Shown here: in pieces, positions 6,242 through 60,461 of the stretch | Layout of the letters: each line of letters begins with the position of its first letter | How positions within the stretch are numbered: the stretch's first letter is position 1 | Source: Xanthomonas vesicatoria ATCC 35937 | GTDB lineage: Bacteria > Pseudomonadota > Gammaproteobacteria > Xanthomonadales > Xanthomonadaceae | DNA length: 64,000 nt | NCBI RefSeq assembly: GCF_001908725.1 | Contig: NZ_CP018725.1 | Coordinates: 372,001 to 436,000, forward strand | Reading direction: 5' to 3' | The notes under the pieces: model-generated | What the model was told of the DNA's origin: nothing | The model's input: the letters and a program-made list of their open reading frames with translations, nothing else | Database searches by the model: none | Program-made: the position numbers and the translations under genes

Positions 6242-6514
6242 CCGCGAGCGGCAATGGCACCGTACCCTAGACGCGCCAGCGTCTGCCTGCATCCATAACG
6301 ACGCGACGGCTCGACACATCGTCTGCCTGGCTATGGTTGGAAACCGAGGCTGCGCCCGCCTGTATTGTTAACGACCCTACGAACCCACATACGGCCTGCT
6401 ACCTAGAGTCGGACAGTGCCGATGCATCTGTGACAGAGCTGCAGTCCATAGCTTCGCTGCGGTGTTTGAGATGCGTGCGACATGTGGATCTGGCATGGGC
6501 CCCAAATGATCGGC

Positions 6515-6529
6515 GCACGCTATTGGTGC
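6515..6529. promoter_or_regulatory. NtrC-like enhancer site upstream of nasA
   Basis: The sequence GCAC-N5-TGGTGC matches the palindromic NtrC consensus GCAC-N5-TGGTGC. It lies about 145 bp upstream of the sigma-54 promoter, a normal enhancer distance. An A/T-rich tract at 6609-6630 lies between them and could assist DNA bending. Nitrogen control of the nas operon by NtrC is established in other bacteria; here it is inferred from the motif. Confidence 0.6.
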
Positions 6530-6659
6530 ATGGCCGCACGAAGCAGGGGAGTGGCAAGCCTCATCTGCCACGCTGGTAGCCGCAAGACATCTTTTGAAGT
6601 GCGCTGAAAGATTTTATTTTTCAATGATTTGCAGCAACGTGACGCTCGGATGAAGGACT

Positions 6660-6674
6660 TGGCACGCTGATTGC
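6660..6674 (+). promoter_or_regulatory. Sigma-54 (-24/-12) promoter of nasA
   Basis: TGGCACG-CTGA-TTGC matches the RpoN consensus TGGCACG-N4-TTGC at every defined base. The GG and GC dinucleotides have the required spacing. Transcription would be expected about 12 bases past the GC, near 6686, so the leader RNA would begin at the base of the first hexaloop hairpin at 6688. No comparable sigma-70 promoter was seen here. Confidence 0.85.
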
Positions 6675-6687
6675 GTAGCACTCACTC

Positions 6688-6749
6688 GCGGGCGCAACGG
6701 CGTGCCTGCAACAACACGTACACGGTGCAGCGGTTCAACGGCGATCCGC
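6688..6749 (+). ncRNA. NasT (ANTAR) target: tandem hexaloop leader RNA of nasA
   Basis: Stem-loop 1 (6688-6709) has an 8-bp stem with two G-U pairs and the loop AACGGC. Stem-loop 2 (6730-6749) has a 7-bp stem with one U-U mismatch and the same loop, AACGGC. They are separated by 20 bases. ANTAR proteins are known to recognise two hexaloops with A at loop position 1 and G at position 4; both loops comply. An intrinsic terminator follows 14 bases later. The octamer CAACGGCG occurs in both loops and again in the 5' strand of the terminator, so mutually exclusive pairing is possible. Confidence 0.85.
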
Positions 6750-6763
6750 ACGCATCCAGGACA

Positions 6764-6806
6764 ACGGCGTCCTTCCGGTTTACCGGAGGGGCGCCGTTTT
6801 TTTTTT
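6764..6806 (+). terminator. Intrinsic terminator/attenuator in the nasA leader
   Basis: Bases 6764-6778 pair along 15 positions (including two G-U pairs) with 6783-6797 around a TTTA loop, followed by a run of T through 6806. It lies only 26 bases before the nasA start codon, with no gene between the sigma-54 promoter and the hairpin. It therefore acts as an attenuator, not as a gene-end terminator. NasT bound to the upstream hexaloops would allow read-through. Confidence 0.93.
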
Positions 6807-6831
6807 GACCATCGCATTCGAAGAGGTCTCT

Positions 6832-8040
6832 ATGCAGCGCTCGTTCTGGCGATCCGGGCACACGCCCACCTTGTTCGCTTCCTTCCTGTATTTCGACCTG
6901 AGCTTCATGGTGTGGTATCTGCTCGGTCCGTTGCAGGTGCCGATTGCGCGATCGCTGGGCCTGGATACACAGCAGCGCGCCCTGATGGTGGCCGTGCCGA
7001 TCCTGTGCGGTGCGGTGCTGCGCCTGGTGCTGGGCATGTTTGCCGATCGCATCGGTGCCAAGCGTGCCGGCGTGCTTGCCCAGCTTGCGGTCATTGCGGC
7101 GTTGTTCGGTGCCTGGCAACTGGGCGTCAGCAGCATGGGGCAGGTGTTGATGCTGGGCGTACTGCTGGGCATTGCCGGTGCTTCGTTTGCGGTTGCATTG
7201 CCGCTCGCATCGCGCTGGTATCCACCCGAGCACCAGGGCACCGCGATGGGCATTGCCGGTGCAGGCAATTCCGGCACGGTGCTGGCGGCGTTGTTCGCCC
7301 CGATGCTGGCGGCCGCCTTCGGCTATCAAAACGTGTTCGGGCTGGCGTGCATCCCGTTGGTGCTGACGCTGATCGTGTTTGCGTCGATTGCCAAGGAGGC
7401 GCCTGCGCCGGTCGCGCGCAAGCAATGGTCCGATTACGGCCGCGTCCTGGTGGGTAACCGCGATGCGTGGCGCTTCATGTTTTTCTATGCGATCACCTTT
7501 GGTGGATTTTCCGGCTTTGCCAGCGCGTTGCCGGGCTACTTCCACGACCAGTTCGATTTCGATGCACGCACTGCGGGCTGGGCCACGGCCGCCTGCGTGC
7601 TGGCCGGCTCGGTGATGCGTCCGCTGGGTGGCGTGCTCGCCGACCGCGTCGGTGGCACGCGTGCCTTGCTGGCGGTGTATCTGCTGGTGGCCGCGCTGGT
7701 GGGCATCGCCGGGTTCGGTGCCGGTGGCGCCACGCTGACGCTGGCGTTGTTCGTGCTGACGTTGCTGTGTCTGGGCGCTGGAAATGGCGCGGTGTTTCAG
7801 CTGGTGCCGCAGCGCTTCGGCCAGGACATCGGCGTCATGACCGGTTTGATCGGTATGGCCGGCGGCATCGGCGGATTCGCGCTGGCCGCCAGCCTGGGCG
7901 TGCTCAAGCAACACACCGGCAGTTATGCAGTGGGCATGTGGCTATTTGCCGCGTTCGCCCTTGGGGGCTGGGCACTGCTGGCCGGCGTCAAGGCTCAGTG
8001 GCGCAACGAATGGTCCACCGCCGGCGCGGCGCGCGTCTGA
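6832..8040 (+). CDS. nasA: NasA/NarK-type nitrate transporter (MFS)
   Basis: This 402-residue inner-membrane protein of the major facilitator superfamily has about 12 hydrophobic helices. Signature segments of the nitrate/nitrite porter family are present: FLYFDLSFMVWYLLGPL in helix 1, a glycine-rich segment with GIAGAGNSGTVLAALFAP in helix 5, and GMAGGIGGFALAASLG in helix 11. An AGAGG ribosome-binding site lies six bases before the ATG at 6832; the frame extends slightly further but into the terminator. It is the first gene of the nitrate operon and is controlled by the leader described upstream. It imports nitrate for assimilation. Confidence 0.93.
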   Translation: MQRSFWRSGHTPTLFASFLYFDLSFMVWYLLGPLQVPIARSLGLDTQQRALMVAVPILCGAVLRLVLGMFADRIGAKRAGVLAQLAVIAALFGAWQLGVSSMGQVLMLGVLLGIAGASFAVALPLASRWYPPEHQGTAMGIAGAGNSGTVLAALFAPMLAAAFGYQNVFGLACIPLVLTLIVFASIAKEAPAPVARKQWSDYGRVLVGNRDAWRFMFFYAITFGGFSGFASALPGYFHDQFDFDARTAGWATAACVLAGSVMRPLGGVLADRVGGTRALLAVYLLVAALVGIAGFGAGGATLTLALFVLTLLCLGAGNGAVFQLVPQRFGQDIGVMTGLIGMAGGIGGFALAASLGVLKQHTGSYAVGMWLFAAFALGGWALLAGVKAQWRNEWSTAGAARV

Positions 8041-8062
8041 CATGTCGACAGGAATCCAGGCA

Positions 8063-10516
8063 ATGAAGCAACCCAGACTCGTCATCATCGGTAACGGCAT
8101 GGCGGGCATCCGCACCGTGGAAGAACTGCTCAAGCTGATGCCGGGCATGTACCACATCACCGTGTTCGGGGCCGAGCCGCATCCCAACTACAACCGCATC
8201 CTGCTGTCGCCGGTGTTGGCCGGGGAGCAGGAGTTCGACGACATCGTGCTCAACTCGCTGCAGTGGTATCGCGACAACGGCATCCATCTGCACCTGAATA
8301 AGGAAGTCACACGCATCGACCGGGTACGTCGCCGCGTCATTGCCGCCGATGGCACCGAAGCCGAGTACGACCGCCTGCTGATCGCTACTGGCTCGGTGCC
8401 GTTCGTACTGCCGATCCCGGGCAACGAGCTGAAGGGCGTGATCGGGTACCGCGATATCCAGGACACCCGCACCATGATCGACACCGCGCGCAGCAAGCAG
8501 CATGCGGTGGTGATCGGCGGCGGCCTGCTTGGTCTGGAAGCGGCCAATGGCTTGAAGGCGCGCGGCATGGACGTGACCGTGGTGCACCTGGCCGGCTGGC
8601 TGCTGGAACGCCAGCTCGACCCGGTGGCGGGCAGTCTGCTGCAGCAGGCACTGCGCGCACGTGGCCTGGAATTTCGCTTGAACACCGCAACCAGCGCGCT
8701 GCTCGGCAATGCGCAGGGCGAGGTGATCGGGGCCAGATTCGCCGATGGCAGCGAAATCCCTGCTGATCTGGTGGTGATGGCCGCCGGCATCCGCCCCAAC
8801 ACGCGCCTTGCCGAAGAAGCCGGCATCCATTGCTCGCGCGGCATCGTGGTCAACGACAGCCTGCAGAGCTTCGATCCACGCGTGTATGCGGTGGGCGAGT
8901 GCGCAAACCATCGTGGGATCGCCTACGGCCTGGTAGCGCCGTTGTTCGAGCAGGCCAAGGTCTGCGCGAACCATCTGGCGCAATTCGGCATCGGCATCTA
9001 TCGCGGCTCGGTGGCGTCGACCAAGCTCAAGGTCACCGGCATCGATCTATTTTCCGCAGGTGATTTCATGGGCGGCGATGGCTGCGAGGAGATCGTGCTG
9101 TCCGACCCGGCCGGTGGTGTCTACAAGAAGCTGGTGATCCGCGACGATGTGCTGGTGGGGGCGTGCCTGTACGGCGACACCAGCGATGGCGGCTGGTACT
9201 TCAAGCTGCTCAAGGACGGCACGCCGATCCAGGCGCAGCGTGACCAGCTGATCTTTGGTGAAAGCGCGCTGGGAGACTCGGGCACCGGCGGTCAGGATCG
9301 TGCCAGCGCCATGTCAGACAGCGACGAGGTCTGCGGCTGCAACGGCGTGTGCAAGGGCACGATCGTCAAAGCCATCAGCGAGCAAGGGCTATTCACTGTC
9401 GACGAGGTGAAAAAGCACACCAAGGCCGCTAGTTCCTGCGGCTCTTGCACCGGCTTGGTCGAACAGATTCTGATGAACTGCCTGGGCTCCAACTTCCAGG
9501 AAACCCCGAAAACCAAGGCCGTCTGCGCGTGTACCGACCTCAGCCATGGCGAGGTGCGCCGCGCTATCCGCGAGCACAGGCTGCTCACCCATGCGCAGGC
9601 CTACGCGTTCATGGAATGGCGCACGCCCAACGGCTGCGCCACCTGCCGGCCGGCGATCAACTACTACATGCTCTCGACCTGGCCGCATGAGGCCATCGAC
9701 GATCCGCAGTCGCGTTTCATCAACGAACGCGCGCACGCCAACATCCAGAAGGACGGCACCTTCTCGGTGATTCCGCAGATGAAGGGTGGGGTGACCAATG
9801 CGGGCGAGCTGCGCCGCATCGCCGATGTGGCAGACAAGTACGCGGTGCCGATGGTCAAGGTGACCGGCGGCCAGCGCATCGATCTGCTCGGCGTCAAGAA
9901 AGAGGATCTGGTGGATGTGTGGCGCGATCTGGGCATGCCGTCCGGCCATGCGTACGGCAAGTCGATCCGCACGGTAAAAACCTGCGTGGGCAGCGAGTTC
10001 TGCCGCTTCGGCACCCAGAACAGCACCCAGATGGGCATCGACCTGGAAACCATGCTGGCCAATATGTGGAGCCCGCACAAGGTGAAGCTTGCGGTGTCCG
10101 GTTGCCCGCGGAATTGCGCCGAATCCGGTATCAAGGACGTGGGCATCATCGCGGTCGATTCGGGCTGGGAACTGCATATTGGCGGCAATGGCGGCATCAA
10201 GACCGAGGTGGCGCGCTTTTTGGTCAAGGTGACAACCGCTGAGGAAGTGCGCGAATACACCGGCGCATTCCTGCAGCTGTACCGCGAGCAGGCCTATTAC
10301 CTGGATCGCACCGTGCATTACATCGCACGGGTGGGGCTGGACTACATCCGCGCGCAGGTGGTGGACGACGCGGCCAACCGGCGTGCGCTGTACGAGCGCC
10401 TGCTGTATTCGCTCGAAGGCCTGGTCGACCCATGGAAAGCGCGCATCGCCGGCGAGCGCCGCCAGGAATATCTACCGCTGCGCATCGCAGCGCCTGCCGC
10501 AACCGTGGAGGGATGA
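8063..10516 (+). CDS. nirB: Assimilatory nitrite reductase [NAD(P)H], large subunit NirB
   Basis: This 817-residue cytoplasmic enzyme reduces nitrite to ammonium with NAD(P)H. From the N-terminus it has an FAD-binding fold (VIIGNGMAGIRTVEEL), an NAD-binding fold (VVIGGGLLGLEAANGL), and two BFD-like [2Fe-2S] segments, the first with cysteines 424, 426, 459 and 462. These are followed by ferredoxin-like and siroheme/[4Fe-4S] domains with cysteines 641, 647, 681 and 685 in the expected C-x5-C and C-x3-C patterns. The ATG at 8063 has AGGA nine bases upstream; an ATG at 8042 is an alternative. It is cotranscribed with nasA and overlaps nirD. Confidence 0.95.
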   Translation: MKQPRLVIIGNGMAGIRTVEELLKLMPGMYHITVFGAEPHPNYNRILLSPVLAGEQEFDDIVLNSLQWYRDNGIHLHLNKEVTRIDRVRRRVIAADGTEAEYDRLLIATGSVPFVLPIPGNELKGVIGYRDIQDTRTMIDTARSKQHAVVIGGGLLGLEAANGLKARGMDVTVVHLAGWLLERQLDPVAGSLLQQALRARGLEFRLNTATSALLGNAQGEVIGARFADGSEIPADLVVMAAGIRPNTRLAEEAGIHCSRGIVVNDSLQSFDPRVYAVGECANHRGIAYGLVAPLFEQAKVCANHLAQFGIGIYRGSVASTKLKVTGIDLFSAGDFMGGDGCEEIVLSDPAGGVYKKLVIRDDVLVGACLYGDTSDGGWYFKLLKDGTPIQAQRDQLIFGESALGDSGTGGQDRASAMSDSDEVCGCNGVCKGTIVKAISEQGLFTVDEVKKHTKAASSCGSCTGLVEQILMNCLGSNFQETPKTKAVCACTDLSHGEVRRAIREHRLLTHAQAYAFMEWRTPNGCATCRPAINYYMLSTWPHEAIDDPQSRFINERAHANIQKDGTFSVIPQMKGGVTNAGELRRIADVADKYAVPMVKVTGGQRIDLLGVKKEDLVDVWRDLGMPSGHAYGKSIRTVKTCVGSEFCRFGTQNSTQMGIDLETMLANMWSPHKVKLAVSGCPRNCAESGIKDVGIIAVDSGWELHIGGNGGIKTEVARFLVKVTTAEEVREYTGAFLQLYREQAYYLDRTVHYIARVGLDYIRAQVVDDAANRRALYERLLYSLEGLVDPWKARIAGERRQEYLPLRIAAPAATVEG

Positions 10517-15956: not shown

Positions 15957-16466
15957 ATGGCCGAACCCCGAGAAAACCTGATGGACTGGTTGCGCGATGC
16001 GCATGCAATGGAGCAGCAGGCAGAGCAGATGCTCAAGGCCCAGGCCGCGCGCATCGAGCACTATCCGAAACTCAAGGCACGCATCGAAGAACATCTTCAA
16101 GAAACCTTGGGCCAGCAACGCTTGGTGGAATCGTGCATCGAACGCCTGGGCGGGTCGCCTTCCGTCATCAAGGACGCCATGGGCAAGATGGCCGCGTTTG
16201 GTCAGGCCATGGGGGGAATGACCACCTCCGACGAGATCGTCAAGGGCGCGATGGCCAGCTATGTGTTCGAAAATCTCGAGATCGCTACCTACACCGCATT
16301 GCTAGGTGCAGCCAAGACGGTGGGCGACATCGAAACCCAGCGTGTCTGCGAGCAGATTTTGCCTCAGGAGCAGGCCATGGCCGACTGGCTGCTTGCCCAT
16401 TTGCCCGAGCTGACAGAAGAGTTTCTGGTGCGCGACGCTACACCGGGCGTGACCGCCAAAAAATAG
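15957..16466 (+). CDS. DUF892 ferritin-like protein (YciE/YciF family)
   Basis: This 169-residue, all-helical protein begins MAEPRENLMDWLRDAHAMEQ, the normal DUF892 start. It has helix-borne acidic and histidine residues (ExxH-type, for example RIEHYP and RIEEHL) that in the family form a di-metal site in a four-helix bundle. Members are induced by stress and are often next to KGG proteins, as here. CAGGAGA lies six bases upstream of the start. A strong terminator follows. The biochemical activity of the family is not settled. Confidence 0.88.
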   Translation: MAEPRENLMDWLRDAHAMEQQAEQMLKAQAARIEHYPKLKARIEEHLQETLGQQRLVESCIERLGGSPSVIKDAMGKMAAFGQAMGGMTTSDEIVKGAMASYVFENLEIATYTALLGAAKTVGDIETQRVCEQILPQEQAMADWLLAHLPELTEEFLVRDATPGVTAKK

Positions 16467-35936: not shown

Positions 35937-36627
35937 CGCTCTCTTACATTCAGATTTAGGGATCGCTGTGCTGAAATCCAAGCGTCATCTCCTCATGGTC
36001 ATGCGATAGCCGCAGGCCTGCGCGGCTGCGCGATGCGCCATGGACACACGCTGCGAGGCGCGCCAAGGCATGGCGCCAGCATGCGGTATCGGTATCGTCG
36101 TTCCATCCGCGTGCGCTGCATGCAGTTATGAGATGCGCTCATTACCGCGTGGCGTTGAAGGCGTGATGCGGTGAGATCACGGAAGAGCGGTTAACAGATC
36201 CTTGCGAGCAGTCCTCAGCTGGATGCGGGCGGTGTAATCAGAACCGGTGTGTTCGAGTGGTCCACGCCACACCGAGCACCGGCCGTGCCTGCCTGGCAGG
36301 TGCACACTAGGCTGTTGTTCTCAATCGCAGCTGCCATCTGCACTCAGCACTCTATGACTTGTGGTCGGTGTGCCGGCCCAGTGGTCGTGTGGCGGGATCA
36401 GCGGCGAGGTGTCTGGTCGAACTGCGCTGGCGAGGACGGATGGATGCCAACCGCACGGCGGTGCCAGGCGGCCTTGCAGCATCGCCAAGCGCACCCGTGC
36501 ACGGCGGGCGCCTGCAACAATGCGTTCATGGCATGGGCAGAAACACCGCATCCGATATCGTCTTGCTCATCACACGCCAGCTGGCAGCATCGGGGCACGT
36601 TTCGCCATTGTCCCCAATGAGTCCGCC
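35937..36627. other. Intergenic region, no gene recognised
   Basis: About 690 bp between divergent genes. Several short open frames cross it but none has a credible start or similarity. It should contain the promoters of the CMD gene and of the DUF2231 operon. Confidence 0.45.
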
Positions 36628-44723: not shown

Positions 44724-45042
44724 GACGTCTTAAGAGCGACTAACAAACCTACTGCGCAGCCGTGAGGCGGGCGCGGTCGGTGCGCGGAATCCTCTTGTAC
44801 CACTCGTCCACTCCGGTTCCTCCGCGCCGCCCACACCCACCTGGCGACTGCTCGCTACGTTCTGTCAGCCGCTCTCGGTTCCAGCGCAAGATGCTTGCCT
44901 TCGACTCACACATGCGTTGGGGTAAGTACAAGAACGACATCCGCAAAATCGCGCCCGATCACGTGGTTTGCAGCCATCAATCCCTCGTCGAGCAGTGGAT
45001 GCGCGGTATACGTGTCGCGAATCGCGCATTGCCTGGCATGCG
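44724..45042. repeat. Gene-free segment containing a probable dispersed intergenic repeat
   Basis: Bases about 44760-44880 read as non-coding GC-rich DNA with the phrase CACCTGGCGACTGCTCGCT. A diverged relative of part of it is seen at 49456-49480 (20 of 25 bases). I recall similar text between genes in other Xanthomonas genomes, but this cannot be checked here. It lies downstream of the TetR gene and upstream of the YqaA-like gene, both on the minus strand. Confidence 0.4.
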
Positions 45043-52598: not shown

Positions 52599-53086
52599 GG
52601 TGCGCCCCACTGTTGTGAAGCGCGGTGCGCATAGGTCGGCGGCGCATGCCGTCCACGGGCCACTGCCAGCCAACCTACCCGGTCGCGGGGCCAGGGGAGT
52701 GCACTGCCGGCAAGCGCGTGGCGCAGGCCCGACAAATCAGACATCGTCATGGACGCGATCTCTCTGGATGGGGACTCGCTGGGTCATGGCGTCGAGCGAC
52801 GCCAGCGGTGACGTCCATGCTGGACGCCTGGCCTCCAATCCAGAACACCGCGTTGGGGCAGGGTCCGATGACTCGATCGGGGGATGCATGTGCACACGTC
52901 GTACCGCGTGCCTCCGCCATGCGTCTTGGACGGCAAGCTGGGTCAGGCGACACCAGCCAGCACGTCAGAGCAGCAGCGACGCTCGGCATGCCCGATTCTT
53001 CTCATTGCGTCACGTCGTGCTGCTCGCCCACGACCAGACCAATGTGCTCCGAGGAGACTGCGCTATGCGATTTCCGTCGCCCAGCG
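52599..53086. other. Gap upstream of the decayed regulator
   Basis: About 490 bp with no intact gene. It may hold the eroded 5' part of the AraC-type regulator whose end is recognisable at 53087-53291, but I see no convincing domain here. Confidence 0.4.
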
Positions 53087-53291
53087 CACGGCGGTCTGGT
53101 GACCACCAGCGCCGGGCTGCAGGTCATCTCCTTGGTGATGGCGAGCCTGGACGGTGCTGAAGTCCGGCACGTCGTCGATCAAGCGCATTGCGCCGCTGAC
53201 CGGTCTGTGCGAGGAACAGATCCTGCGTCGTGCCTTCCTGCGCGTGCTGTGTATGGCACCAAGCGATTACCGTAAACGCCTCCGCAGCAGC
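53087..53291 (+). pseudogene. Remnant of an AraC-family (GlxA-type) regulator
   Basis: Bases 53187-53291 encode IAPLTGLCEEQILRRAFLRV and continue with LCMAPSDYRKRLRSS. This matches the second helix-turn-helix of AraC proteins (A-GLSE-x-x-LxRxFxxxLGxSPxxYRxRxR). In another frame just upstream, VTTSAGLQVISLVMASLDG resembles the 'TSAGVTAGIDLALAL' segment of GlxA-type regulators. No continuous frame with a start joins them, so the gene is broken by a frameshift and erosion. It may once have controlled the cluster downstream. Confidence 0.5.
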
Positions 53292-53423: not shown

Positions 53424-54425
53424 ATGCACCAATCAGCCTTCTCCCGGGATAATCTGCCCCGCACGTCTTCGACACCATCAAATCCAGCGCTGGCGCAACG
53501 CGCGCGTGAGTACTTGCGCGTGACGCCGCAGCTTCCAAATCCTGGCAAAGGACACACGAGTGCACGTTGGCAGGCGCTGAGCAAGCTGGGCGCTGAGAGC
53601 TTGCCACTGGCCAAGGTGCTGGAAGCGCATTACGACGCGTTGTCCATCTTTTCCGAAGCCGGCCAGCCTTTGCCGTCCAATGACGCTGTCTGGGCAGTCT
53701 GGGCAGCGGGGGGGCCACACGACACCGCTACGTACGAACCGGACTCATGCACTGTGTCTGGTCTCAAACCGTGGTGCAGCGCTGCGTTGGACGTCGTGAC
53801 GCACGCACTGGTGACTGTCAGCAGCGGCGATCAGACTCCGCTTGCCATAGTGACACTCACACAGGACCACTTTACGCTCGACGCAAGTCAGTGGCACGGC
53901 CCTGGCATGGCCGGTATTCCCACCGGTAGCGGCCATTTCATGCGTGCTCCCGCAGTCTTGCTAGGTAAGCCTACGTTCTATCTAGAGCGTCCGGGCTTTT
54001 GGCATGGTGGAGCAGGCATTGCCGCCTGTTGGTATGGGGCCGCCACGGCCATTGCTGAGCAGGTGCGCCGTTCGCCAAGAGTGGCGCACAACCCATTTTC
54101 TGCAGCGCACCTCGGTGCCATCGATGAACAGCTGACGGGTGCGCGGCTGATGCTGCATCACCTGGCAGATGCGATCGACAATGCGCCAGCCGAAAGCCAT
54201 CAGCTCGCCGTTATTCGGTTGCGCAGCATGATGGACCGCGTCTGCCGGGATGTGCTCGAACGCGCTGCATTGGCGTTGGGACCTGTCTCGCTGTGCTGCG
54301 ATGCCGAGCATGCGCAGCGATGTGCAGACCTGGCTGCCTTCATTCGCCAATCCCATGGCGAAAAGGACGAGCAATGGCTGGGTGAACAACTGCATGTGAG
54401 CGAGGTCAATCCATGGGTGCTCTGA
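53424..54425 (+). CDS. Acyl-CoA dehydrogenase-like protein
   Basis: This 333-residue cytoplasmic protein resembles acyl-CoA dehydrogenases. AVWAVWAAGGPHDTATYEPDS corresponds to the central region and LSGLKPWCSAALDVVTHALV (here VSGLKPWCSAA) to the FAD/strand segment. The C-terminal helices run from PGFWHGGAGIAACWYGAA. It is shorter than standard members (about 380) and the usual catalytic Glu is not obvious, so activity may differ. The ATG at 53424 is the first with a family-like N-terminus. It overlaps the PIG-L gene by 13 bases. Confidence 0.82.
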   Translation: MHQSAFSRDNLPRTSSTPSNPALAQRAREYLRVTPQLPNPGKGHTSARWQALSKLGAESLPLAKVLEAHYDALSIFSEAGQPLPSNDAVWAVWAAGGPHDTATYEPDSCTVSGLKPWCSAALDVVTHALVTVSSGDQTPLAIVTLTQDHFTLDASQWHGPGMAGIPTGSGHFMRAPAVLLGKPTFYLERPGFWHGGAGIAACWYGAATAIAEQVRRSPRVAHNPFSAAHLGAIDEQLTGARLMLHHLADAIDNAPAESHQLAVIRLRSMMDRVCRDVLERAALALGPVSLCCDAEHAQRCADLAAFIRQSHGEKDEQWLGEQLHVSEVNPWVL

Positions 54426-55171
54426 GAGGCGAGCACATCGACGGGCAGGGCGTCACTGAGTCGCGCTGGAGCACGTCGCGGCAATTGACTGAGCTGCCCA
54501 TTACCAGCGTCGAGCAACTCCTCGGAAACACTACCCGTGTGGTCGTGGTCTCTCCGCATCCTGATGACGAGGTACTGGGGTGTGGCGGGCTGCTTGCGAT
54601 GGCAGTGGCCTCGGGACGACCGGTGCTGATCGTCTCGGTCACCGACGGCGAAGCGGCCTATCCGCAGGAAGACGCGTGGCCCCCGGCACGTCTGGCCGCC
54701 GCGCGTCGTGGTGAATTGCGCGATGCGTTGGCATGCCTGGGAATCGATCCCGCCCATGTGGTCAGGCTGGACGCGGGCGATGGCCAGGTCCGCGCGGGCG
54801 TGGGCGCACTGAGCGCGCGGCTTTCTGAACTGCTGCAGCCGACCGACGCAGTGCTGGTGACATACGCACGCGATGGCCACCCCGACCACGAAGCATGTGC
54901 CGATGCCGCGCTCAATGCCGCTGCCCACTGCGGCGCGCGTTTACTCCAGTTTCCGGTGTGGGCGTGGCACTGGGACGACCCAGATCACAGCCAGATGCTC
55001 GCATTGGCCGTACGTCTTGCGCTTCCGCCCCTTGCCCACGCCGCAAAGATGCGGGCCATGGCAGCATTCAAGACGCAGACCGGCCATGTCACGCCCGCGC
55101 TGCGTAATCCCATCCTCCCCGACTGGGCACTTGCACGCTTTCGGCGCCACTTTGAGGTCTATTTGCCATGA
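54413..55171 (+). CDS. PIG-L family deacetylase
   Basis: This 252-residue protein has the zinc-binding SPHPDDEVLGCGG motif and the later GHPDHEACADAAL, giving His-x-x-Asp-Asp and His-x-x-His ligands. PIG-L/LmbE enzymes remove the acetyl group from N-acetylglucosamine linked to lipids, mycothiol or antibiotics. It overlaps genes on both sides (13 bases with the dehydrogenase, ATGA with the methyltransferase), so its product acts with theirs. No signal peptide is present. The acceptor is unknown. Confidence 0.92.
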   Translation: MGALRGEHIDGQGVTESRWSTSRQLTELPITSVEQLLGNTTRVVVVSPHPDDEVLGCGGLLAMAVASGRPVLIVSVTDGEAAYPQEDAWPPARLAAARRGELRDALACLGIDPAHVVRLDAGDGQVRAGVGALSARLSELLQPTDAVLVTYARDGHPDHEACADAALNAAAHCGARLLQFPVWAWHWDDPDHSQMLALAVRLALPPLAHAAKMRAMAAFKTQTGHVTPALRNPILPDWALARFRRHFEVYLP

Positions 55172-55770
55172 ACGCCCAGGCCAACGCCGAGTACTTCGAT
55201 AGCATCTACCAGCAGCAGGATCCCTTTGGCTATGGAACGCGGTGGTACGAGACACGCAAACGCGACATCCTGCTGGCAACCTTGCCTCGCATGGGCTTCG
55301 CACGCGGTTGGGAACTGGGATGTTCCAACGGTGAGGCGACGCGCGGGCTGGCAGCCCGCTGTGATCACCTGCTGGCGACCGACATGTCTGCCGCTGCCGT
55401 GGAACAAGCCAAACAGCGTGTAGGAGAGCGCAGCAACGTCGATATCGTGCAGGCTTGCCATCCACAGCAATGGCCGGCCGGTAATTTCGATCTGATCGTG
55501 CTGAGCGAGATCGGTTACTACCTTGCTGCCGCCGAACTTGATGACCTGATCGTGCGTCTGCAGGCAGCGCTCACGCCGGACGGACTGCTGGTGGCCTGTC
55601 ATTGGAAGCATCCATTTGATCAGGCGCAGCAGGATGGCGTCGCGGTCCATGCCTGCATTGCCGGATTGCTCACCTTGCCGCTGAGTTATCGCTACGAAGA
55701 CAGCGATTTTTTGCTTGAAGCGTGGACAGCGCAATCGCTCTCGGTGGCACAACAGGAAGGCTTGCGATGA
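55168..55770 (+). CDS. NodS-like SAM-dependent methyltransferase
   Basis: This 200-residue class I methyltransferase starts with MNAQANAEYFDSIYQQQDPF and GYGTRWYETRKRDILLATLP, a pattern seen in NodS-type enzymes. Motif I is WELGCSNGEATRGL, followed by LLATDMSAAAVEQA and FDLIVLSEIGYYL. NodS N-methylates a deacetylated glucosamine in Nod factor synthesis. Here it follows a PIG-L deacetylase and precedes a glycosyltransferase, each by an ATGA overlap. N-methylation of a deacetylated amino sugar is therefore the obvious hypothesis. Confidence 0.9.
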   Translation: MNAQANAEYFDSIYQQQDPFGYGTRWYETRKRDILLATLPRMGFARGWELGCSNGEATRGLAARCDHLLATDMSAAAVEQAKQRVGERSNVDIVQACHPQQWPAGNFDLIVLSEIGYYLAAAELDDLIVRLQAALTPDGLLVACHWKHPFDQAQQDGVAVHACIAGLLTLPLSYRYEDSDFLLEAWTAQSLSVAQQEGLR

Positions 55771-56435
55771 TTGCGGTCATCATCCCGGCACATAACGAAG
55801 CCGAGTGCATCGCCGCGTGTCTCAGATCGGTTTTCCGCGCTGCATCGCATCCCGAGCTGCATGAGGCGGTAGAAGTGATCGTCGCGGCGGACCGCTGCAC
55901 GGATGCCACCGCCGAACTGGCACTGGCGCTTGGCGCGCGCGTGGTCAAAGTCCCCTCACCTGGGGGTGTAGGCACTGCGCGCGCCGCAGCCGCATCCCAC
56001 GCCATTGCGATGGGTGCTGACTGGCTGGCCGTCACTGATGCCGACTCACGCGTTCCCGCCGATTGGCTGCTGGAACAACGCCGTGCAGGCACCGAAGTGT
56101 TCTGCGGCATCGTGGAGGTCGATGATTGGCTGGACTATTCGGATGAGGTGCAGCGCAGGTTCGCGCAGACCCAGGCAATCGGCGAAGGCCACCAACGCAT
56201 TCACGGCGCCAATCTAGGGGTGAGCACCCATCTGTATCAACAATGTGGCGGATTCTCTGCATTGACCTGCAGCGAGGATGTCGCGTTGGTGCACGCGCTA
56301 CAGGCGATCAAGGCATCGATCGCGTGGTCGCCACGCTCGGTGGTGCAGACCAGTGCCCGCAGACATGCACGCGCACTTGGCGGCTTCTCGGATTTTTTAA
56401 AGCAGCTAGAAGTCTTGCCTTATATGCCTGCATAG
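55767..56435 (+). CDS. GT2-family glycosyltransferase
   Basis: This 222-residue GT-A enzyme starts MIAVIIPAHNEAECIAACLR. The nucleotide-sugar site has ADRCTDATA and the metal-binding DxD in VTDADSRVP. The acceptor region holds HGANLGVS and LTCSEDVALVHAL, an ED pair typical of inverting GT2. It is short and has no membrane helices. It is the fourth gene of the coupled set; a 291-bp gap follows. Donor and acceptor are unknown. Confidence 0.9.
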   Translation: MIAVIIPAHNEAECIAACLRSVFRAASHPELHEAVEVIVAADRCTDATAELALALGARVVKVPSPGGVGTARAAAASHAIAMGADWLAVTDADSRVPADWLLEQRRAGTEVFCGIVEVDDWLDYSDEVQRRFAQTQAIGEGHQRIHGANLGVSTHLYQQCGGFSALTCSEDVALVHALQAIKASIAWSPRSVVQTSARRHARALGGFSDFLKQLEVLPYMPA

Positions 56436-56726
56436 CTACTGTCGTCCTGCGGTGGCGTCAGCTTGAAAACGGTGTGGTCGATACCGGCGCCTGTTGCCGC
56501 ACTGCTTTCGCAGCGATTGTTTTTCGAGCCGAATTCACTAGCGCCGCCATCGCTGCCCCAAATCTGGGCCAGGCAGCTGGGTTAATGCGCATCTGCGCCC
56601 CTTTCCGCGCGTAGGGCGACGGCCTGGCATGGCACGCCATTGTCACCGGCTGACTTTCGAGCTCATCTGCACGAGGCGTGGACGAAGCGTGCGGCAGCAT
56701 GCCCGACTCGTAGACCAAGGTGTGAC

Positions 56727-58091
56727 ATGGCCAAGCCAATGCTGTTTTTCCTGCATGCCCTCGGAGGCAGCCGGCATGCGTGGAGCCGCGTCGTCGCGCA
56801 GTTCGATGATCGCTTCGACTGTGTTGCCCTGGACATCCCCGGATTCGGCGATGCGGCTCCGCTGGAGCACGTTGGCACGGCAGCGCTGGTTGACTGGTTT
56901 AGCGCTGAAGTCGTCGCTCGGCAGCCAGCCTGTTGGTTTGCAATCGGGCACAGCATGGGTGGAAAGATCGCCACGTTGACGGCAGCGCGGGCGCGCGATG
57001 GTGTGGCAGGACTTGCCGGTCTGGCGGGCGTGGTGCTCGTTGCCGCATCGCCACCGGCACCCGAACCCATGAAAGAGTCGCGACGGCGCACGATGCTTGC
57101 CTGGTTCCAAACAGGGCAGCCTACGCGCGCCGAGGCGGGGCAGTTCGTGGATGCCAACTGCGCCTCTGTGCTGCCGGACGACTGCAGGAATGCTGCGATC
57201 AATGACGTCCTGCGTACCGCCCCCAGTGCATGGAATGCATGGCTCACGCGCGGCAGCCGCGAAGACTGCACCACGCAGGTCGGGCGCATCGGCGTACCGG
57301 CAATGATCGTGGCCGGTCGCCAGGATGGCGATCTGGGCGAGGCTGCGCAACGGCGCTTGAATGCACCGCATTATGCGCAAGCGCAGCTCGCCATCGTGAC
57401 CGATGCCGCGCATCTGATTCCCTACGAGCAGTCGCAGGAACTGGCAAGGTTGATCGCCGCACATGTAGACCGCTGCAGGGAGCATTGCCTGCCTGAGGAC
57501 TTCATTGCCTTGCTGAACTCAGAGCGCGTGGCGCCGCGCATGCGGATGACGCTACTTGCGCGGCACGTGGGCCCGCCCGCTGTGGGCGAGGGCGTGTTGA
57601 GCCGGCGCCAGTTGGACGTGCTCGCCGCCGTGGTCGCACGCGTGCTGGATGGCGCGGGAGATGCACAGCAGATTGCACGACGGATCGACCTGGCGCTCGC
57701 AGAAGGCACAGGAGATGGCTGGCGGCACGCTGACTTGCCGGAAGATCACCTGGCGCTACCGCTGGGGCTGGATGCGCTCGATGCGCTGGCCGGCGGCTTT
57801 GCCGAACAATCCGCGGACCGCCAGGACCGCTGGCTGCAGGACATCGCGCACGCAAGAGTGGGCAACACCTCAGCGCATGGCCTGGATGCCACACAGCTGG
57901 CGCATTGGTTCGAGGACGTGGGCGCCGACGCGGTGCGCACCTGGACCAGCCTGCCCGCCACCATGGCCGCGCTGGGCTACGACGGTTTCGCTGTCGGCAA
58001 CGACGCCGGCACTGGTCGCCTGGGCTATGCAGAAACGGCGGCAGATCGGCATGAGCACTGGCAGCTGCGTGCCCCTGGGGCTGTGCGATGA
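56727..58091 (+). CDS. Alpha/beta hydrolase fused to a gluconate 2-dehydrogenase subunit 3-like domain
   Basis: Residues 1-255 are an alpha/beta hydrolase: LFFLHALGGSRHAWSRVV (oxyanion), IGHSMGGKIA (nucleophile Ser), GRQDGDLG (acid) and DAAHLIPYE (His). Residues about 290-454 resemble the small, usually separate, subunit 3 of membrane GMC-type dehydrogenases, with LSRRQLDVLAAVVARVLDG near the start and LPATMAALGYDGFAVGNDAG near the end. The fusion overlaps the GMC oxidoreductase by four bases, which supports this reading. The hydrolase may release a substrate for oxidation. The ATG at 56727 starts MAKPMLFF. Confidence 0.8.
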   Translation: MAKPMLFFLHALGGSRHAWSRVVAQFDDRFDCVALDIPGFGDAAPLEHVGTAALVDWFSAEVVARQPACWFAIGHSMGGKIATLTAARARDGVAGLAGLAGVVLVAASPPAPEPMKESRRRTMLAWFQTGQPTRAEAGQFVDANCASVLPDDCRNAAINDVLRTAPSAWNAWLTRGSREDCTTQVGRIGVPAMIVAGRQDGDLGEAAQRRLNAPHYAQAQLAIVTDAAHLIPYEQSQELARLIAAHVDRCREHCLPEDFIALLNSERVAPRMRMTLLARHVGPPAVGEGVLSRRQLDVLAAVVARVLDGAGDAQQIARRIDLALAEGTGDGWRHADLPEDHLALPLGLDALDALAGGFAEQSADRQDRWLQDIAHARVGNTSAHGLDATQLAHWFEDVGADAVRTWTSLPATMAALGYDGFAVGNDAGTGRLGYAETAADRHEHWQLRAPGAVR

Positions 58092-59614
58092 CCGTCGCTG
58101 GCAACCGGGACGATGTCGATGTGGTGGTGGTCGGCAGCGGAGCGGGGGGCGGGCCTCTTGCGGCTCGGCTTGCGCAAGCCGGCGTCTCGGTGGTGGTGCT
58201 CGAAGCGGGCGCAGCATTTACGCCGGAGTCTCACATTCCCGATGAGCTCAGCACCGGCATCTACTGGATGGACGAGCGTCTGAGCGGTGGGCAAACGCCT
58301 ACCGCGTTTGGGCCGAACAATTCGGGCTCGGGGCTTGGCGGTTCCACGCTGCATTGGGGCGCCTTCTGCCCGCGGCCGGACAAGCGCGATCTCAGCCTTC
58401 TGACCCAAACCGGCCATGGCGCCGATTGGCCCATCCCTTATGAGGAGTTGCTGTCTTACATTCGTCGTGTGGAGACTTTTATTGGCGTTTCCGGCCCTGC
58501 GCATTATCCCTGGGACCCCGAGCGCAGCTATGCGTATCCGCCACCCCAACGCAATGCCTCGGCCGCAGCCATGGAGCGCGGTTGCCGTGCCCTCGGCATC
58601 CGGGCCACCGATGCACCGGCGGCGTTGGTCACCAGGCCCCATCAGCAGCCGCATTGGGGCCAACGCGCAGCGTGCAACAACTGCGGTGCATGTCACCAGG
58701 GCTGCAGCAATGCCGCCAAGGTGAGTGTGGATACCACATGGCTTCCTCTGGCAAGGGCGCATGGTGCGCAGCTGCGGACCGACAGCCGGGTAATCGATCT
58801 TGAACGCGATGGCCGCGGTGCGCTGACCGCAGTGATCTACAGCCAGCATGGGCATGAGTACCGCCAGCGGTGCGGCAACGTGTTCCTGTGCGCGGGCGGG
58901 GTGGAAACGCCGCGCTTGTTGCTCAATCTGGGGCTGGCCAACTCCAGCGGTCAAGTGGGGCGCAATTTCATGGCGCACGTGGCCACTCAGGTGTGGGGCG
59001 AGTTCGACGCAGACATACGCATGAATCGCGGCTACCCATCCTCGCTCATCACAGAGGACATGGTGCGCCCGGCCGATGCCGACTTCGTTGGCGGTTATCT
59101 GGTGCAAAGCCTAGGGGTGCAGCCGATCACGCTGGCCAATACGCTGGCGCGCGGTGCTGGCCTGTGGGGCAGGGAACTCGTGTCCACTATGTTGCGTTAT
59201 AACCGTCTGGCCGGTATCGGCATCAATGGAGAGTGCCTGCCGCACGCTGCCAATCGTCTGATTTTGTCGGACGAACGGGACGCTTTCGGGCAGCGCAAGG
59301 CGCGTATCGATTTCAGTTACGGACCGAACGAACAGGCCATCGACGCGCATGCGCGTGCACTGCTGCAGGCGATCTGGCGAGCCGCTGGCGCCCACAATAT
59401 CTTTGCGGCTGCGCGTTCGGCACACACGCTCGGTACCTGCCGAATGGGCACTGACCCCGAACGGGCCGTCGTCGATCCTGATGGCCGTGCCTTCGATGTG
59501 CCGAACCTCTACATCTGCGACAACTCGGTGTTCCCCAGTGCACTGGCGGCGAATCCGGCGCTGACGCAGATGGCGCTCGGCCTGCGTGCCGCAGAACGTT
59601 TTCTCGCGCGCTAG
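58088..59614 (+). CDS. GMC-family FAD oxidoreductase with a cysteine cluster
   Basis: This 508-residue protein has the FAD-binding VVVVGSGAGGGPLAARLAQ motif, SGSGLGGSTLHWGAF, and the C-terminal VDPDGRAFDVPNLYICDNSVFP and NPALTQMALGLRAAE segments. A cysteine-rich insert CNNCGACHQGC (near residue 197) recalls the iron-sulfur site of FAD glucose dehydrogenases and gluconate dehydrogenases. No signal peptide is seen; in related complexes the partner subunit carries the export signal, but the fused partner here lacks one. Substrate is unknown; likely an alcohol or sugar group. Confidence 0.9.
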   Translation: MTVAGNRDDVDVVVVGSGAGGGPLAARLAQAGVSVVVLEAGAAFTPESHIPDELSTGIYWMDERLSGGQTPTAFGPNNSGSGLGGSTLHWGAFCPRPDKRDLSLLTQTGHGADWPIPYEELLSYIRRVETFIGVSGPAHYPWDPERSYAYPPPQRNASAAAMERGCRALGIRATDAPAALVTRPHQQPHWGQRAACNNCGACHQGCSNAAKVSVDTTWLPLARAHGAQLRTDSRVIDLERDGRGALTAVIYSQHGHEYRQRCGNVFLCAGGVETPRLLLNLGLANSSGQVGRNFMAHVATQVWGEFDADIRMNRGYPSSLITEDMVRPADADFVGGYLVQSLGVQPITLANTLARGAGLWGRELVSTMLRYNRLAGIGINGECLPHAANRLILSDERDAFGQRKARIDFSYGPNEQAIDAHARALLQAIWRAAGAHNIFAAARSAHTLGTCRMGTDPERAVVDPDGRAFDVPNLYICDNSVFPSALAANPALTQMALGLRAAERFLAR

Positions 59615-59657
59615 CGGTAGCTGCGCCGCCACGTTATTCAACCACCAGGAGCTCAAT

Positions 59658-60461
59658 ATGGATCTCGGAATCAACCAGCGCATTGCCCTCATCAGCGGCG
59701 GCGACTCAGGCATGGGCAAGGAGACCGCACGCCAGCTACTCGAAGCAGGCGTCCGCGTGGCGATCACCGATCTTCCCGACGGCACACTCGACCAGGCACT
59801 GGCTGAGTTATCCGACTTGGGTGAGATCATCGCCATCGAAGGCGACGTGACGCGCGGACAGGATGTCAACGCCATCTGGGCGCAGGTGCGCGAACAACTG
59901 GGTGAGCCGGACATCTACATCAATGCAGCCGGCGTCACTGGCGCCACCGGCGATTTCCTCGAGGTCAGCGATGCCGGCTGGCTCGAAACGCTGGACATCA
60001 ACCTGATGGGCGCGGTGCGCATGTGCCGCCAGGCCATTCCCGCCATGCGTCGCAAACAGTGGGGGCGGATCGTGTTGTTCGCATCCGAAGATGCGGTGCA
60101 GCCGTACGTCGATGAGCTGGCCTACTGCGCTTCCAAGGCCGGCATCCTCAGCTTGGCCAAGGGGCTCTCTAAAGCTTATGGCGCTGACAATGTGTTGGTA
60201 AACACCGTGTCGCCTGCCTTCATCGCAACGCCAATGACAGACAAGATGATGCAAAAACGCGCGCAGGAAAACGGAACCAGTGTCGAAGAAGCGATCTCTT
60301 CGTTCTTGGACGAGGAGCGACCCGGCATGGTGCTCAAGCGACGTGGCCGGCCAGAGGAAGTGGCGTCGGTGGTCGCGTTCCTGTGCTCCGAGCGCGCCAG
60401 CTTCATCAACGGGGCCGGCGTGCGCGTAGATTCGGGCTCTGTGTTTACCATCGCTGGCTGA
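59658..60461 (+). CDS. Short-chain dehydrogenase/reductase at the end of the oxidoreductase cluster
   Basis: This 267-residue SDR has a Rossmann motif ISGGDSGMGKETARQLLE (GGDSGMG instead of the classic GASSGIG), NAAG (INAAGVTG), catalytic Ser in FASEDA, and YCASKAG for Tyr and Lys. An Asp at the end of strand 2 (ITDLPDG) favours NAD. CCAGGAG lies seven bases upstream of the start. It is 43 bases from the GMC gene, so it is probably the last gene of that transcript. Confidence 0.9.
   Translation: MDLGINQRIALISGGDSGMGKETARQLLEAGVRVAITDLPDGTLDQALAELSDLGEIIAIEGDVTRGQDVNAIWAQVREQLGEPDIYINAAGVTGATGDFLEVSDAGWLETLDINLMGAVRMCRQAIPAMRRKQWGRIVLFASEDAVQPYVDELAYCASKAGILSLAKGLSKAYGADNVLVNTVSPAFIATPMTDKMMQKRAQENGTSVEEAISSFLDEERPGMVLKRRGRPEEVASVVAFLCSERASFINGAGVRVDSGSVFTIAG

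Follow-up and report, generated by a model that had tools for sequence, protein, structure and literature searches.

A widespread four-gene module of Xanthomonas that may tailor an amino-sugar glycoside

In a 64,000-nucleotide stretch of the Xanthomonas vesicatoria ATCC 35937 genome (positions 372001-436000 of 5.35 Mb; hereafter the window), four overlapping genes encode an acyl-CoA dehydrogenase (ACAD)-like flavoprotein, a PIG-L deacetylase, a NodS-like methyltransferase and a family 2 glycosyltransferase (GT2). What could these four proteins make together? The original prediction had read the overlaps as a sign of joint function, and had proposed a logic like that of Nod factor synthesis, with a dehydrogenase to shape an acyl group. 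We give about an even chance to the view that the four genes form one tailoring pathway for an amino-sugar glycoside, probably located in the cytoplasm. Reading the reactions, their order and their substrates from sequence, GT2 would place an N-acetylated amino sugar (GlcNAc or a related sugar) onto a small acceptor, PIG-L would take off the acetyl group, the NodS-like enzyme would methylate the liberated amine, and the ACAD-fold flavoprotein would oxidise the product, with flavin-dependent (mono)oxygenation rather than acyl-CoA dehydrogenation as the most likely chemistry. The product would probably be a small soluble compound for drying, osmotic or oxidative stress. We favor an amino-sugar pathway because of the linkage of the genes, gene fusions, joint presence in genomes, PIG-L genes at split loci, the nearest relatives of the methyltransferase, PIG-L and ACAD-like proteins, and the stress genes in the neighborhood. 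The enzyme classes are known and their combination is old and widespread, and no description of the four-gene set was found in the open-access literature (titles and abstract openings).

Linkage of the four genes goes far beyond chance. A search with a profile built from the ACAD-like protein (A1) provided 80 loci, the best 80 of 301, which are mostly from Lysobacteraceae and not independent. Three loci from plasmid records (L002, L003, L005) and 29 distinct loci from an even phylum sample of 398 genomes, spanning 13 families, bring the total to 112 distinct loci, with L144, the same locus as L073, counted once. For the even sample, up to 16 kb was fetched around 30 of the 32 strong-match genomes, that is, all except the window's own genome and G344. 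Class labels, beta/gamma (the class of the window) and alpha (ten loci, another class of the phylum), were inferred. A neighbor was counted if it was on the same strand within 5 kb of the ACAD-like gene. By this rule, the methyltransferase gene stands beside the ACAD-like gene at all 112 loci, PIG-L at 102 and GT2 at 101 (L059 ends at a contig edge, and L166 and L172 have GT2 on the opposite strand). All four genes are together at 94 loci, in strict order at 87 of them. For the even-sample loci only, the numbers are 29/29 for the methyltransferase, 24/29 for PIG-L and 21/29 for same-strand GT2. Gaps at the three junctions, measured between profile envelopes, lie between -80 and +30 bp in 92 of 102, 94 of 102 and 92 of 101 cases, respectively. 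As a control, none of the four profiles matches in 59 random 16-kb regions from 23 of the 30 genomes. Overlap, a weak argument for joint function by itself, is thus backed by the locus survey, and the co-conservation elsewhere on which the original prediction depended was indeed found.

The ACAD-like profile matched 40 of the 398 genomes at 1e-3, 32 of these at E < 1e-13. The module, with diverged enzymes of its own, is present in about one genome in 12 of the even sample, a lower bound, since only about five candidates were scored per genome and one module (in G426) was missed. Of 35 genomes of the genus, 23 show a strong match in one piece, one shows a match in two pieces and 11 show none. 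The gene in two pieces (L018, X. phaseoli, same record as G028) is a sign of module decay in part of the genus. Between the four proteins, pairwise distances show correlations of 0.79 to 0.87 (95 loci, with L144 = L073 counted twice), and common descent alone would also produce correlation.

Reciprocal searches of the same genomes and gene fusions also connect the genes. At E <= 1e-15, the methyltransferase profile matched 43 genomes, and every one of the 32 ACAD-positive genomes is among them. Of the 11 others, G362 has an orphan methyltransferase, G426 holds the module overlooked by the first search, and G234 has a strong NodS (263.7 bits). In the five fetched of the remaining eight (G069, G077, G105, G287 and G308, that is, all except G085, G157 and G205; second, shorter matches in G069, G077, G234 and G287 not included), a NodS-like domain lies within a long protein. 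The PIG-L profile matched 49 genomes, 32 of them at E <= 1e-30, and 29 of these 32 have an ACAD-like gene (G426 included). In the G426 locus (L258), PIG-L and methyltransferase are fused in a single frame of 462 residues, with the ACAD-like gene directly upstream; Pfam places PIG-L at residues 41-168 (81.6 bits) and NodS at 272-399 (27 bits versus a cut-off of 24). Six long proteins were examined, and all of them join the NodS-like domain to a polysaccharide deacetylase of PF01522, which we take to be the family of NodB. Five of the six, about 1000-1200 amino acids long, are also fused to GT2 (L255 at 6379-9381, L256, L257, L259, L260), and the sixth (L261) combines methyltransferase and deacetylase in a frame taken without GT2 match. 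One of these loci (L256) is the second NodS-like locus of a genome, G363, that also carries the module. Together, the PIG-L-methyltransferase fusion and the PF01522 fusions tie NodS-family methyltransferases to sugar N-deacetylases of two unrelated families. As far as sequence relationships can tell, this recurring pairing is the best support for the central idea of the original prediction: the Nod-like core of GT2, deacetylase and N-methyltransferase is supported by comparative genomics and by the fusions, with only a partial kinship of the enzymes to their Nod counterparts.

Motifs are intact in three of the four enzymes. The window methyltransferase matches PF05401 (NodS) with 44.9 bits versus a cut-off of 24, and has the S-adenosylmethionine motif ELGCSNG from residue 49. 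Its profile finds as top solved match 4ISC (2.6e-69), named only 'Methyltransferase', about which nothing was found in the open-access literature. NodS (3OFJ, E 7e-24) is the nearest named relative, followed by phosphoethanolamine N-methyltransferases and, lower, gentamicin N-methyltransferases, consistent with predicted N-methylation. The deacetylase belongs to the PIG-L/LmbE (CE14) family, with 93.8 bits for PF02585 versus a cut-off of 28.2 and with the metal-site motifs PHPDDE (from residue 48; invariant in 12/12 aligned rows) and HPDH (from residue 156; kept except for the Pro in one row). Its nearest solved relatives are diacetylchitobiose deacetylases (E 5e-18), and it is the only PF02585 protein found in its genome. 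A second PIG-L follows the module in L148, L149 and L153, with 225-236 bits to the profile of the module's own PIG-L. The glycosyltransferase is a GT family 2 member by PF00535 (59.4 bits versus a cut-off of 23.3, for a frame that begins 45 bases upstream), by its motifs DAD (residues 91-93) and ED (residues 170-171), both invariant in 15 aligned rows, and by the GT-A fold of its AlphaFold2 model (pLDDT 92.7), with WrtF, GalNAc-T2 and TarS as fold neighbors. The names arsenosugar and mycofactocin glycosyltransferase were rejected, with scores far below their cut-offs.

Parts of the module can be separated within a genome. Seven of the ten genomes with a PIG-L-less locus were searched (all except those of L003, L078 and L081), and all seven have some PF02585 protein, versus 7 of 14 controls. 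In three of the seven, a module-type PIG-L is found elsewhere (G062, 163 bits; G185, 153 bits; G172, 125 bits). The second locus of G062 and G185 has PIG-L with GT2, GT4 and GT28-like genes, and in G185 also GT61, and the set is divided into ACAD-like protein plus methyltransferase and PIG-L plus glycosyltransferases. Both halves are side by side in L166, L171 and L173. Families of GT4, GT28-like and second GT2 proteins were found in 6, 6 and 7 of 14 alpha/G172 loci (query loci included), and in none of 22 control regions and none of 19 beta/gamma module loci.

Neighboring genes suggest a role in stress survival, by catalases, ferritin-like proteins and trehalose synthases. As markers, we chose from the 80-locus set KatE catalase, Mn-catalase, two DUF892 proteins, DUF2383, DUF421, OtsA and OtsB; DUF892 and DUF2383 are presumably ferritin-like. 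The Mn-catalase and both DUF892 queries were named from sequence, and the Pfam match to DUF892 was for another member. Markers occur in the fetched region of 13 of 29 even-sample loci versus 3 of 57 control regions (Fisher p = 2.2e-5; L144 and two control regions of its genome excluded). Adding Ku, LigD, TreY and GlgX, which were picked after viewing the test loci, results in 18/29 versus 3/57, and one or more markers of this full list occur in 32 of 83 loci (the 80 plus L002, L003 and L005). OtsA is directly upstream of the module in L002, L072, L151 and L156. In the Comamonas locus L002, OtsA and the ACAD-like gene share 4 bases, and OtsB begins 4 bases after GT2. Near its module, L258 encodes a protein that combines GT4 and sucrose-phosphate phosphatase domains, and TreY matches were found in L146, L148, L149, L153 and L162. 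Ku and LigD had been guessed from protein length as neighbors in Stenotrophomonas, but these are other proteins, and Ku/LigD matches were found only in L083 (from a Pseudomonas putida strain), L146 and L166.

A number of observations weigh against the proposed pathway. The pair of ACAD-like protein and methyltransferase is the constant part, as PIG-L is absent from 10 and GT2 from 11 of the 112 loci. Four genomes (G356, G289, G432, G433) have retained ACAD-like protein, methyltransferase and GT2, but their PIG-L proteins are all distant (22-30 bits); the methyltransferase may therefore do without the module deacetylase in some cases. Two of these, G432 and G433, are a Burkholderia sp. and a Paraburkholderia (L076, L082), and G356 and G289 are of family f19, probably the same family; these PIG-L losses in Burkholderiaceae argue against a strict need for PIG-L. 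The methyltransferase of G362 has none of the other three genes in the fetched 16 kb, and G164, G311 and G127 have a module-type PIG-L without an ACAD-like gene among the matches of the ACAD-like profile (3/32). The GT2 model and its fold neighbors point to no donor specificity, and the fold comparison of the ACAD-like protein by Z is a tie between true ACADs and monooxygenases. With respect to stress, 11 of 29 test loci have no marker, even counting the post hoc ones. The sole marker in the window is a DUF892 match at 15972-16463 (48% over 164 residues), about 37 kb from the module, and with marker-free flanks the stress link is not visible in the window.

Some of these observations could also be explained by one pathway of another kind, which we consider possible: the methyltransferase would act on oxygen, a carboxyl group or another non-amine, PIG-L would cleave another amide or an ester, and the ACAD-like protein and methyltransferase would modify an aglycone that is later glycosylated. 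Inseparability of these two genes (112/112), loss or relocation of PIG-L and GT2 at some loci, and a nearest solved methyltransferase relative, 4ISC, without function in its name would all fit. Pairing of NodS-like domains with sugar N-deacetylases of two unrelated families, also by fusion, argues against this reading.

Enrichment close to stress genes could also mean that the four genes share regulation only, as stress-regulated neighbors without common product. We regard this as unlikely, in view of the tight junctions across the phylum, the PIG-L-methyltransferase fusion, the joint genome presence even where the set is divided over two loci and, to the extent that common descent does not suffice, the correlated protein distances.

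The PF00441 (Acyl-CoA_dh_1) match of the ACAD-like protein is barely above the cut-off (25.1 versus 22.4 bits), is confined to the C-terminal ACAD domain, and is the weakest of seven PF00441 matches in the genome. Fold searches show the overall ACAD fold. However, the position of the ACAD catalytic Glu (IYEGT motif) is occupied by Gln309 in 112/112 aligned rows, with one further row gapped, and the alternative (isovaleryl-type) Glu site, for which the alignment is less sure, by Arg189 in 103/103 beta/gamma rows and by E in five and Q in five of the ten alpha rows (all these counts include the duplicated locus L144 = L073). With E values up to 10, a profile search yielded 12 PDB sequences. At the top are 5GJ7/5Z8T (molecule name, ACAD type 2 domain protein; title of 5Z8T, flavin-containing monooxygenase), then TdsC, and further down DszC, MsuC and nitrososynthases, with ColB1 (7XP7) and 6U1V, named dehydrogenases, in between; FadE3 is last (E 0.38). 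The Foldseek ranking has mostly monooxygenases on top, the motifs K-x-(W/F)-C-S and W...GM are shared with TdsC and DszC, and two alpha members tested have SfnB as best match. Judging by these relatives, the protein probably belongs to the DszC/MsuC/nitrososynthase branch and acts as an oxygenase or oxidase.

We therefore rejected a genuine acyl-CoA dehydrogenase, given the Glu to Gln change and the profile similarity to flavin monooxygenases. The label in the original prediction remains valid for fold and domain, the latter only C-terminal and just over the cut-off, but is not supported for dehydrogenase activity. The idea that went with it, that a true acyl-CoA dehydrogenase shapes the acyl chain of an N-methylated amino-sugar lipid, has the ACAD fold and the slight PF00441 excess in its favor, and is very improbable in light of the residues at both Glu sites, of no NCBIfam match for the window protein, and of no acyltransferase among the four genes.

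If amine oxygenation by the ACAD-fold protein follows the PIG-L and NodS-like steps, the product could represent a new class of stress protectants: a small, often non-reducing glycoside with an N-methylated, N-oxygenated amino sugar (N-methyl-hydroxylamine or nitrone type) that scavenges radicals or stabilizes dried cells beside trehalose and catalases. This is a long shot. The stress-island setting makes the role of the product directly testable.

In the window, all four genes are complete, each with a start and a single terminal stop, and belong to the Pfam families that had been stated (Table 1). Successive genes overlap by 13, 4 and 4 bases. The GC content of the four-gene stretch is unremarkable compared to its surroundings, and a sigma-70 promoter scan gave no useful result. 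The 5' flank is a GlxA remnant, and an intact GlxA-family regulator was not seen directly upstream of the module. The 3' flank encodes an alpha/beta hydrolase, a GMC oxidoreductase and an SDR. Judged by cluster and order, this trio is 3' of the module in L006-L009 and 5' in X. cannabis (L013), and the three genes may thus relocate together in the vicinity of the module. The Xanthomonas small RNA sX9 also occurs twice in the window.

Table 1. Coordinates of the module genes and of other features in the window.
Feature	Position	Strand	Remarks
ACAD-like gene	53424-54425	+	333 aa
PIG-L gene	54413-55171	+	252 aa
NodS-like methyltransferase gene	55168-55770	+	200 aa
GT2 gene	55767-56435	+	222 aa
GlxA remnant	53049-53291		about 80% DNA identity to part of GlxA-family regulator from X. 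campestris plasmids
Hydrolase, GMC oxidoreductase, SDR	56640-60461		3' flank
sX9, first copy	44795-44870	+	82.9 bits
sX9, second copy	36189-36265	-	48.4 bits

How does the module compare to known systems? In mycothiol and bacillithiol synthesis (MshA/MshB, BshA/BshB), a glycosyltransferase and then a PIG-L deacetylase yield a small acceptor that carries glucosamine with a free amine. The module has this logic in common, but it has another glycosyltransferase family, misses the equivalog cut-offs, and adds methyltransferase and flavoprotein. That it makes such a low-molecular-weight thiol is hardly credible despite MshB and BshB among the PIG-L relatives and the link to oxidative-stress genes, as PIG-L scores far under the NCBIfam cut-offs (BshB2 47.4/195, BshB1 44.7/182.5, MshB 32.1/224 bits), no cysteine ligase was seen among nine scanned window proteins or the partially annotated neighbors, and the beta/gamma module glycosyltransferase is GT2, not GT4; membership in these pathways was rejected.

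Class D flavin monooxygenases with ACAD fold (TdsC/DszC, MsuC, SfnB, and the amino-sugar nitrososynthases KijD3, DnmZ and Micromonospora 3MXL) share the fold of the ACAD-like protein, which differs from them in being shorter and in having its own family-specific RQ C-terminus.

Nod factor synthesis (NodC, NodB, NodS) has the classes GT2, sugar N-deacetylase and NodS-family methyltransferase in common with the module. In contrast to it, the module has PIG-L instead of PF01522 (Pfam finds no PF01522 in the window PIG-L), a short GT2 without NodC match in Pfam or NCBIfam instead of a chitin synthase (NodC being a larger membrane chitin synthase), a methyltransferase far below the NodS equivalog NF041650 (57.8 versus 300 bits), and an extra ACAD-fold flavoprotein. 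Nod factor membership was rejected on these three enzymes. A NodA-like acyltransferase was found neither among the four proteins nor among the nine window proteins scanned with Pfam and NCBIfam, the part of the genome to which this search applies. The GT2-NodS-like-PF01522 fusion proteins are another comparison: they combine the same three reaction classes in one polypeptide, and differ from the module by a deacetylase of the other family, by extra GT2-like genes beside most of them, and by no ACAD-like gene found in their 16-kb loci. If the proposed pathway is correct, the chemistry of GT2, N-deacetylase and NodS-like methyltransferase would be a general route to N-methyl amino-sugar compounds, not peculiar to symbiosis signals, and would use deacetylases from two or more unrelated families.

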